Assembly (NCBI GenBank): GCA_003278165.1
Contig: QCGU01000003.1
Location: 1 to 64,000 of the forward strand
Length of the DNA: 64,000 nt
Direction of reading: 5' to 3'
DNA from: Pelagibacteraceae bacterium AG-390-A02
GTDB lineage: Bacteria; Pseudomonadota; Alphaproteobacteria; Pelagibacterales; Pelagibacteraceae
This document shows, piece after piece, positions 28 to 2,784 of the stretch (position 1 is its first letter; each line of letters opens with the position of its first letter). The notes beneath the pieces are model-generated. The model ran no database searches and was not told where the DNA came from. It saw nothing but the letters and a program-made list of their open reading frames with translations. A program made the position numbers and the translations under genes.

Positions 28-681
28 ATGAATGAAAAACAAAAAGCAAAAGTTATAATTAAAACTCTAAATAAAATTTATCCTAAAGCCCCTGTTCCTT
101 TAAAAAGTAAAAATACATTTACATTATTAATTTCTGTGCTGCTTTCTGCACAATGTACTGATGTAAATGTTAATAATGTAACTAAAGATATTTATCCAAA
201 ATACTTTAAACCTGAGCATTTTGTAAAATTAGGAAGAAAAAAAATTGAAAAATTGATAAAAAAAATCGGGATTTTTAGAGTTAAAGCCAAAAGCATTTAT
301 TTGATGTCAAAACAAGTGCTGGAAAAACATAAAGGCAAAGTGCCTAGAACTTTTGAAGAACTCGAAAAATTACCTGGTGTAGGCCATAAAACAGCAAGTG
401 TAGTAATGTCCCAAGGTTTTGGACACCCAGCTTTTGCAGTTGATACTCACATTCATAGGCTCGCACAACGGTGGGGTTTAACAAATGGGAAAAATGTAGT
501 TCAAACTGAAAAAGATTTGAAAAGAATTTTTCCTAAAAAAAAATGGTCCAAACTTCATCTACAAATAATATTTTATGGTAGAGAATATTGTAAAGCCAGG
601 GATTGTTATGGTTTAAGATGTGAAATATGTACTACTTGCTACCCAAATAGAAAAAAACCTGTTATTACCAAAAAAGCTTAA
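28..681 (+). CDS. nth: Endonuclease III
   Basis: HhH motif LPGVGHKTASVV, catalytic VDTHIHRLAQRWG, C-terminal 4Fe-4S cysteines CKARDCYGLRCEICTTC. Confidence 0.95.
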   Translation: MNEKQKAKVIIKTLNKIYPKAPVPLKSKNTFTLLISVLLSAQCTDVNVNNVTKDIYPKYFKPEHFVKLGRKKIEKLIKKIGIFRVKAKSIYLMSKQVLEKHKGKVPRTFEELEKLPGVGHKTASVVMSQGFGHPAFAVDTHIHRLAQRWGLTNGKNVVQTEKDLKRIFPKKKWSKLHLQIIFYGREYCKARDCYGLRCEICTTCYPNRKKPVITKKA

Positions 682-682
682 T

Positions 683-1612
683 ATGAAAATTTTAGGAATA
701 GGTAATGCAATTGTAGATGTTATTTGTAAAGTGGATGACAGTTTCATTGAGCAAAATAATCTTACAAAAAGTACGATGAAATTATTCTTTGATGAAAATG
801 AATTCAAAAGTTTATTAAAAAATCTTAAAATAGAAAAAACAGTATCTGGAGGATCGGTTGCAAACTCAATAGTTGGTATATCTCAACTTGGCGATAAAGT
901 TGGTTTTATAGGTAAAATTTCCGATGATCAGTTTGGTAGTAATTATGAGGCAGGGTTAAAAAAAGAAAAAGTTGAGTTTTTTTATTCAAAAAAAAAAGAG
1001 GAGTTGCCAACTGGAACGTGTCTAATATTAGTAACACCTGATTCTGAAAGAACAATGTGTACTTTTTTAGGTACAGCAGGAAAAATAAATGAAAATGATG
1101 TTAGTTCAGAAGCTATTAAAAAAAGCGAAATAATATTTTTAGAAGGTTATTTATGGGATGAAGGGGATCCAAAAAAAGCATTTGATAAAGCTATAAATAA
1201 CGCAAACAAGGTTGCAATGTCACTCTCTGACTTGTTTTGTGTGGATAGACACAAACCTCATTTTTTAAACTTAGTTAAAAACAAACTAGATATAACTTTT
1301 GCTAACGAACAGGAAATTACGTCATTAATTGACGCAAATAATTTTAATGAAGTTGTAAATTTTTCAAAACAACTAAATAAATTAATCATTATAACCAGGG
1401 GTGAAAAAGGTGCAGTTGCAATTAATGGTAATGCAGTTGTTGAAAGTGGTATTCAAAAAAATCTAAACATAGTTGATCTTACAGGTGCAGGTGATCTCTT
1501 TGCTGCTGGATTTTTACATGGGTACATAAATAAACTGTCTACAAAAGATTGCCTTGAAAAAGGTACTGAAATGTCATCAAAAGTAATACAACAAATTGGA
1601 GCAAGGCTTTAG
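683..1612 (+). CDS. PfkB-family carbohydrate/adenosine kinase
   Basis: MKILGIGNAIVDV start; GGSVANS and DLTGAGDLFAAGFLHG PfkB motifs; the listed ORF start at 620 lies inside nth, so the ATG at 683 is preferred. Confidence 0.9.
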   Translation: MKILGIGNAIVDVICKVDDSFIEQNNLTKSTMKLFFDENEFKSLLKNLKIEKTVSGGSVANSIVGISQLGDKVGFIGKISDDQFGSNYEAGLKKEKVEFFYSKKKEELPTGTCLILVTPDSERTMCTFLGTAGKINENDVSSEAIKKSEIIFLEGYLWDEGDPKKAFDKAINNANKVAMSLSDLFCVDRHKPHFLNLVKNKLDITFANEQEITSLIDANNFNEVVNFSKQLNKLIIITRGEKGAVAINGNAVVESGIQKNLNIVDLTGAGDLFAAGFLHGYINKLSTKDCLEKGTEMSSKVIQQIGARL

Positions 1613-1614
1613 GT

Positions 1615-1734
1615 TTAAATTTTCTTTCTTTTAAAACTACCCTTACCTTTTTTAGGTTTGATTGTTTTTGGTTTATACTTTTTAGAAAATAAGTTTTTAG
1701 CAATAGGGTTTTTCTTAATTAATTTGATAACCAT
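1615..1734 (-). CDS. ArfA-like alternative ribosome-rescue factor (39 aa, not in ORF track)
   Basis: Hand translation MVIKLIKKNPIAKNLFSKKYKPKTIKPKKGKGSFKRKKI*; KKGKGS(F/Y)xRK signature resembles ArfA; start overlaps the 3' end of the upstream minus-strand gene. Confidence 0.65.
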   Translation of the reverse strand: MVIKLIKKNPIAKNLFSKKYKPKTIKPKKGKGSFKRKKI

Positions 1735-2296
1735 TTTTTTTACTGATTATAAATTCATTATCCTTAAAAGTATTTAAAATTTTTTTTCTTAAACGATATA
1801 TATGAGTCTCAACAGTGTGGGTTTCTATGTCAGTTTGATAACTCCATACTTTTTCTTGTAACTCATCGATGCTAACTGGTTTATTTGATTTAGACAAAAA
1901 TATAATTGTATTAATTTCTTTTTCAGTTAATTTGAGCTTGATGTTTTTTGCTGATATTTCTCTTGAATTTAAATCTATAATATAATTATTTACTTTGACT
2001 TCTGATTGACTGTTGAATTGTACTTTTAAAAATTCAATATTTATTTTTTCTTTAAATTTAGAAATGTTGACAGGTATATCATTTAAAACAAATTGATGGC
2101 TAATACCTGAATATTCTCTATCTGTTATAATCAAATAATTATTAAGATCTTTAATTGTATCGTTTAAAATATTTTCATTATCTACAAATAAAATTTTAAA
2201 ATTTAAATCTAACTCTATTTCTTTAAGGATATGATATAGTTGCGAAAATTTATATATTATTAAATTCTGAGCTTGCACAATTATAGAATATGACAA
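1715..2296 (-). CDS. Winged-helix (OmpR-type C-terminal) transcriptional regulator with degenerate N-terminal receiver-like region
   Basis: LTEKEINTIIFLSKSNKPVSIDELQEKVW...VETHIYRLRKKI...IISKKNGYQI is typical Trans_reg_C; start codon is TTG in the track. Confidence 0.75.
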   Translation of the reverse strand: MSYSIIVQAQNLIIYKFSQLYHILKEIELDLNFKILFVDNENILNDTIKDLNNYLIITDREYSGISHQFVLNDIPVNISKFKEKINIEFLKVQFNSQSEVKVNNYIIDLNSREISAKNIKLKLTEKEINTIIFLSKSNKPVSIDELQEKVWSYQTDIETHTVETHIYRLRKKILNTFKDNEFIISKKNGYQIN

Positions 2297-2784
2297 TTTT
2301 ACTGAAAAATAAACATACTCTTCAAATAGATGAATTTATGTTTAAGTGTTGTTTAGGAAAAAAAGGAACAACAAAGAATAAAAAAGAGGGAGATAAAAAG
2401 ACTCCAATAGGTACCTTTAAAATTGAAAATCTTTATTTTAGGAAGGATAGATTAAAAAAACCATTAACTTCATTAAGATGTATTGAAATAAAAAAAAATA
2501 TGGGTTGGTGTGATGATATTCATTTTCCTAAAAAATATAACAAGCTTATCAAAATTGAGAAAAAAGTTGGTCATGAAAAATTACTAAGAAAAGATCATAA
2601 ATATGATTTTCTAATACCAATTAAATATAATTTTGAAAAACCTATTACTGGTCTAGGAAGTTGCATTTTTATTCACTTAACTAAAGATTACAAGCCTACA
2701 GATGGATGTGTTGCTATAAATAAAAAGGATTTTCTAATCCTACTTAAATTAATTAAAAAAAATTCTAAAATTAAAATTTTTTAA
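2290..2784 (+). CDS. L,D-transpeptidase (YkuD-like) family protein
   Basis: GSCIFIHLTKDYKPTDGCVAINKKD matches the HX(n)[S/T]xGC YkuD active-site pattern. Confidence 0.8.
   Translation: MTILLKNKHTLQIDEFMFKCCLGKKGTTKNKKEGDKKTPIGTFKIENLYFRKDRLKKPLTSLRCIEIKKNMGWCDDIHFPKKYNKLIKIEKKVGHEKLLRKDHKYDFLIPIKYNFEKPITGLGSCIFIHLTKDYKPTDGCVAINKKDFLILLKLIKKNSKIKIF

Follow-up and report, generated by a model that had tools for sequence, protein, structure and literature searches.

An ArfA-family gene in SAR11 bacteria encodes a predicted backup ribosome-rescue factor of 39 residues

Results

Organization and conservation of the locus

The window, a stretch of 64,000 nucleotides, belongs to a SAR11 genome whose assembly comprises 1.08 Mb and is 79% complete. 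A preliminary description of this DNA had pointed to a short ArfA-like open reading frame (ORF) at positions 1615-1734. The ORF is present exactly there on the minus strand, where its 39 codons, opening with ATG and followed by TAA, read MVIKLIKKNPIAKNLFSKKYKPKTIKPKKGKGSFKRKKI*. The genes and features of the region are:

28..681 (+): nth, endonuclease III-like (HhH-GPD), a conserved neighbour
683..1612 (+): pfkB-family sugar kinase (PF00294), convergent with arfA
1615..1734 (-): arfA, 39 aa, ATG at 1734 and TAA at 1615-1617; PF03889 match, purifying selection on orthologues
1618..1659 (-): basic tail KPKKGKGSFKRKKI, corresponding to the part of E. coli ArfA that occupies the vacant mRNA channel
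1715..1734 (-): overlap of 20 nt between the arfA 5′ end and the regulator gene 3′ end, in different frames
1715..2296 (-): regulator gene upstream of arfA, 193 aa, C-terminal winged-helix Trans_reg_C domain (PF00486, E = 4e-13)
2290..2784 (+): L,D-transpeptidase (YkuD)-like gene, a conserved neighbour past the regulator (Pfam match and synteny)

As the preliminary description had it, arfA starts within the 3′ end of the winged-helix regulator gene. The two genes probably share one transcript. At its other end, the arfA stop lies tail to tail with that of pfkB, 2 nt away. The N-terminal half of the regulator gave no match to a receiver domain in Pfam, and this gene diverges faster than its neighbour pfkB.

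The pfkB locus of the window is up to 95% identical to those of named Pelagibacteraceae single-cell genomes, and the same arfA gene is present in Candidatus Pelagibacter ubique SCGC AAA795-A20 (L227). We assembled an orthologue set anchored on pfkB, comprising 80 named genomes and the window's own locus. The arfA frame is open in 80 of these 81 loci, the sole exception (L195) being a contig that ends 60 nt past pfkB. Nearly all of ~60 loci in five genera preserve the gene order, with nth-pfkB on one strand, arfA-regulator on the other and then ykuD and yggS, so that arfA is found downstream of the same winged-helix gene across relatives. The overlap between arfA and the regulator is 20 nt in 61 of the 72 measurable loci and 1-29 nt in the other 11, while the gap between the pfkB and arfA stops is 2, 1 or -4 nt in 69 of 80 loci.

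Membership of the ArfA family

The suggested likeness to ArfA was borne out by profile searches. The window protein matches Pfam PF03889 (ArfA) at 27.7 bits (E = 1.8e-6), above the curated gathering cut-off of 25.5 bits, and matches no other Pfam family, DUF7230 (PF23876) included. When the whole genome was searched in six frames with PF03889, a single match stood out, namely the arfA ORF (25.9 bits, E = 9.4e-6). No NCBIfam model matched the protein, which at 39 aa and without a GGQ motif is not an ArfB.

An alignment of 25 SAR11 sequences (A1) strengthens this assignment. All 25 match PF03889 individually and KKGKGS..R is invariant among them; in SAR11 orthologues the tail takes the form KKGKGS[YF]xRK, with F commoner than Y. 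A single-sequence search of solved structures ranked E. coli ArfA first (E = 0.16), and with the A1 profile E. coli ArfA was the sole molecule among all PDB chains at E<=1 (E = 6.1e-7). The alignment between the two is colinear and ungapped over 33 residues, non-basic positions included. Based on these comparisons, it is close to certain that the ORF is homologous to arfA and represents the arfA gene of a SAR11 (Pelagibacteraceae) bacterium.

Selection on the reading frame

Among 79 distinct Pelagibacteraceae orthologues, the median dN/dS is ~0.05-0.08 in moderately diverged pairs, which make up most of the comparisons, and 0.16 in 30 very close pairs, indicating purifying selection. Pairwise differences at the three codon positions are 0.079, 0.086 and 0.347, and thus fall mainly at the third.

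Distribution in SAR11 and other Alphaproteobacteria

Of 148 genomes drawn from the SAR11 order, 106 gave strong matches of the A1 profile to the GKGS form of ArfA; this form was tallied at E below ~1e-13 and the remainder was read from a search for a second form. The second form is a related protein of 35-50 aa without GKG, encoded at other loci in 32 of the 148 genomes (alignments A2 and A3). It occurs in 13 genomes belonging to the window's genus, in both of those from genus g6, and in all but one of the 18 sampled from the second family (17 of 18). It keeps the N-terminal half NPxA..L.....+..+, and the profiles of the two forms align with each other (probability 96, E = 3.9e-9). One example of the GKG-lacking form (L162-L173, L107-L117) is MSKKRKKLKKKNPMAKLLSSPMLRNKIVKNKKKIYNRKKFKLENE, encoded near photolyase-like genes.

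None of the 148 genomes carries both forms, and 10 carry neither. Shared descent accounts for part of the 106/32/0 split, so we attach no probability to it. The pfkB-regulator locus is intact without arfA in five of the 10 genomes with neither form (G063, G066, G067, G072 and G105), and also in three genomes with the GKG-lacking form. Since no other relative was found in those five, arfA is dispensable in some lineages.

Across the class, ArfA matches at E<=0.01 were obtained in 10 of 388 alphaproteobacterial genomes, SAR11 ones included, and the family is therefore rare outside the order. A few non-SAR11 Alphaproteobacteria have a clear ArfA, such as NPVAARLSRARFQPKQVIPRKGKGSYKRRSKH (L065). 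Like E. coli ArfA, two of the proteins encoded at L065, L066 and L067 have KH in their tail (RSKHPQG).

The form from SAR11 genus g6 (L113) scores 27.0 against DUF7230, exactly at the cut-off, and DUF7230 may be related to ArfA. It was also considered as a widespread alphaproteobacterial ArfA relative and rejected, being found in only 5 of 289 genomes of the class. A donor tree of 150 cores placed SAR11 in 17 separate groups with modest support; at 31 residues the core is too short to resolve them, and we therefore claim no direction of ArfA transfer.

Other rescue systems in SAR11

ArfB (NF006718) scored above the cut-off in none of the 148 SAR11-order genomes. E. coli and Caulobacter were among the controls that gave a signal, and two controls scored above the cut-off. 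By both frame length and score, the weaker ArfB matches (one or two in each genome) correspond to RF1 and RF2. By contrast with ArfB, tmRNA (RF01849) was found in 141 of the 148 genomes. The window's genome encodes a permuted tmRNA with the tag ANESYALAA, together with RF2 (prfB, 494 bits). The predicted role of arfA as a minimal backup rests on this genome content, with tmRNA and RF2 present and ArfB absent, and ArfA seems to replace ArfB, the usual backup factor, in SAR11.

A survey of 15,259 genomes counted ArfB in 2,022 and ArfA in none of 2,376 alphaproteobacterial genomes (PMC11633108), and arfA has been stated to be absent from Alphaproteobacteria (PMC10070815). Among the papers searched for ArfA together with SAR11, a single one was relevant, and it dealt with a phage gene (PMC12753301). 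Judged by its sequence, arfA is a genuine ArfA-family gene of predicted function, with no earlier description from this group of hosts in the searchable literature. That the ORF falls below usual length cut-offs and matches no NCBIfam model may be why it was missed.

ArfA relatives in phages

ArfA-like genes are common in marine viral contigs, where scanning with A1 confirmed at least 308 encoded relatives. Translation of 151 viral loci yielded many distinct ArfA-like proteins (contigs L276-L435), inspection revealed phage genes in the flanks of several of them, and four representatives passed PF03889. Two cultured SAR11 phages, HTVC027P (gp30, MN698241) and HTVC034P (gp63, MW273922), encode GRGS or GKGS forms, and HTVC115P gp18 is a GKG-lacking form similar to the SAR11 one. 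Named phage copies are mostly annotated "hypothetical protein", although annotated examples exist in other phages (PMC8953757; PMC12753301), and HTVC027P gp30 has been identified as PF03889 and is expressed during infection (PMC12753301). A tblastn search of named phages with the 39-aa protein found nothing, whereas longer phage versions did find matches. Two PHROG phage families that have no assigned function, phrog_20887 and phrog_37108, probably represent ArfA too, with matches to ArfA sequences of both SAR11 and phages.

Discussion

Proposed mechanism and the residues behind it

In E. coli, the basic stretch of ArfA lies in the vacant mRNA channel, and RF2 is recruited by the middle of the protein (PMC5378476, PMC8012679). 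SAR11 ArfA would be expected to act likewise, entering the A site once a ribosome has run past the 3′ end of its mRNA and placing its KKGKGSFKRK tail in the empty channel. Its middle part would recruit release factor 2, which would then hydrolyse the peptidyl-tRNA without a stop codon.

The residues underlying this activity in E. coli are partly kept. There, a hydrophobic patch of Leu19, Leu24 and Phe25, with a small residue at position 18, orders RF2, and A18T is inactivating (PMC5378476); a protein shortened to 40 residues is also inactive (PMC8012679). In the ungapped alignment, SAR11 ArfA keeps Leu20 and has Tyr or Phe at the Phe25 position, but Ala18 is replaced mostly by Lys, Leu19 by Asp, Asn or Glu, and Leu24 by Lys. 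The SAR11 protein lacks the KH motif that E. coli ArfA has near residue 44, and it terminates at roughly the position corresponding to that residue. Several of the changed positions contact RF2 or the decoding centre in E. coli. As the tail, Leu20 and the aromatic are kept while positions 18, 19 and 24 and the KH motif are changed, the homology is firm and the details of RF2 activation may differ. On the RF2 side, the positions that meet ArfA (contacts from PMC5378476) are kept in the window's genome, with E. coli V198 present as I and F217 and W319 unchanged. Our analysis establishes that the gene belongs to the ArfA family, is conserved in sequence and position and is under selection, in genomes that lack ArfB and contain tmRNA and RF2; that arfA is translated, recruits RF2, rescues ribosomes and is controlled in the way set out below is an inference.

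Control of expression

The characterised ArfAs share regulation through a non-stop mRNA, a trait that the Pfam definition does not include. The preliminary description had noted that, unlike E. coli arfA, this gene ends in an ordinary stop directly after the basic tail, and such a stop is common to all 80 orthologues. We found no terminator inside arfA, nothing unusual in the folding of its mRNA (z = 0.57), and no conserved RNA structure or hairpin across orthologues (consensus fold -1.05 kcal/mol). With an ordinary stop and no hairpin, non-stop control of the E. coli kind is not evident for SAR11 arfA. The protein would probably be made directly, rather than only upon tmRNA failure as in E. 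coli, and its translation is perhaps coupled to the upstream regulator gene.

The tail-to-tail placement of pfkB and arfA recalls E. coli arfA and mscL, whose 3′ ends are complementary (PMC10070815), and an antisense route to a truncated arfA mRNA is conceivable, although purely hypothetical. We rejected a site in antisense pfkB, at 1337-1317 (-), that resembles a terminator: 5-8 of its 8 pairs remain in 80 relatives, which coding conservation could explain.

Alternative explanations

The overlap with the regulator gene and the close abutment to pfkB raise the question of whether arfA is an untranslated chance frame that owes its conservation to its neighbours. The conserved core lies outside the regulator overlap, however, substitutions concentrate at the third positions of the arfA frame itself, and pfkB and the regulator adjoin each other in lineages without arfA. 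The codon-position pattern and the arfA-less loci refute this explanation in practice, and we give it virtually no weight. A translated small basic peptide of another role, such as ribosome assembly or RNA binding, could owe its likeness to ArfA to convergence, as short lysine-rich sequences can resemble each other; the lack of an NCBIfam match would also fit. We consider this very improbable, given that the colinear match extends to non-basic positions and exceeds the curated cut-off, that the reverse profile search of structures returns only ArfA at E<=1, and that relatives in other Alphaproteobacteria have the longer RKGKGSYKRRSKH form.

It is somewhat easier to imagine, although still unlikely, that the protein belongs to the ArfA family and its altered N-terminal half serves another purpose, either by engaging another partner (RF1 as well as RF2, like ArfT) or by merely blocking the channel of vacant ribosomes. 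The likeness to ArfT, which works with RF1 as well as RF2, is drawn from its literature description only (PMC8012679). The positions of E. coli Ala18, Leu19 and Leu24 are changed throughout SAR11, and forms in sister lineages have lost GKGS yet keep the N-terminal half, both of which would suit such a shift. Against it, the Phe25-position aromatic and the whole tail are retained, as are the RF2 residues that meet ArfA, although these are conserved in RF2 generally. Taking the analysis as a whole, we think it highly likely that arfA encodes an RF2-recruiting backup to trans-translation, predicted to act in ArfB's place in SAR11.

Implications

Pelagibacteraceae are among the most abundant bacteria of the ocean. 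The conservation of ArfA across this family, in genomes without ArfB, goes against the conclusion of two surveys that ArfA is absent from Alphaproteobacteria. It offers a concrete case in which one backup rescue pathway would have been replaced by another, in genomes strongly pressed to stay small, and a natural ArfA that is apparently not controlled through a non-stop mRNA as its E. coli counterpart is. With so many copies in phages, it becomes possible to test what ribosome rescue does during marine infections.

A wider scenario, which we put forward as speculative and rather doubtful in its entirety, is that SAR11 swapped ArfB for an ArfA free of tmRNA control that acts alongside trans-translation and not just upon its failure. 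In this scenario the slot would be filled by two interchangeable forms, one without GKGS, and the family would circulate between SAR11 and phages, which would carry ArfA to keep host ribosomes available during infection.

Comparison with known systems

Several known factors share parts of this picture. DUF7230 shares the half NP[IV]A..LR...F..+V..KK with the SAR11 forms lacking GKGS, and itself lacks GKGS. ArfB (YaeJ/ICT1) backs up trans-translation in Caulobacter and other Alphaproteobacteria, the role predicted here for ArfA, but differs from ArfA in having its own GGQ catalytic domain. BrfA of Bacillus subtilis resembles ArfA in that it is described as recruiting RF2 for rescue and as placing a basic tail in the mRNA channel (PMC8012679); by its literature description, it is set apart from SAR11 ArfA by the structure of its N-terminal part, which differs, and by its non-stop mRNA. 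HTVC027P gp30 has a similar tail, KKGRGSFKR, but is 58 aa long with an N-terminal extension, and its gene adjoins that of the terminase small subunit.

The closest comparison is with E. coli ArfA (YhdL). The E. coli protein has 72 aa against 39 in SAR11, where the stop follows directly after the tail with no hairpin or terminator. SAR11 ArfA also departs from it at Ala18, Leu19, Leu24 and the KH motif, and its host belongs to an alphaproteobacterial order. The two nevertheless share the KKGKGS[YF]xRK tail, the 33-residue colinear match and the aromatic at the Phe25 position, and in both cases tmRNA and RF2 are present in the same cell. Both genes also have a convergent tail-to-tail neighbour, which is mscL in E. 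coli (PMC10070815) and pfkB in SAR11.
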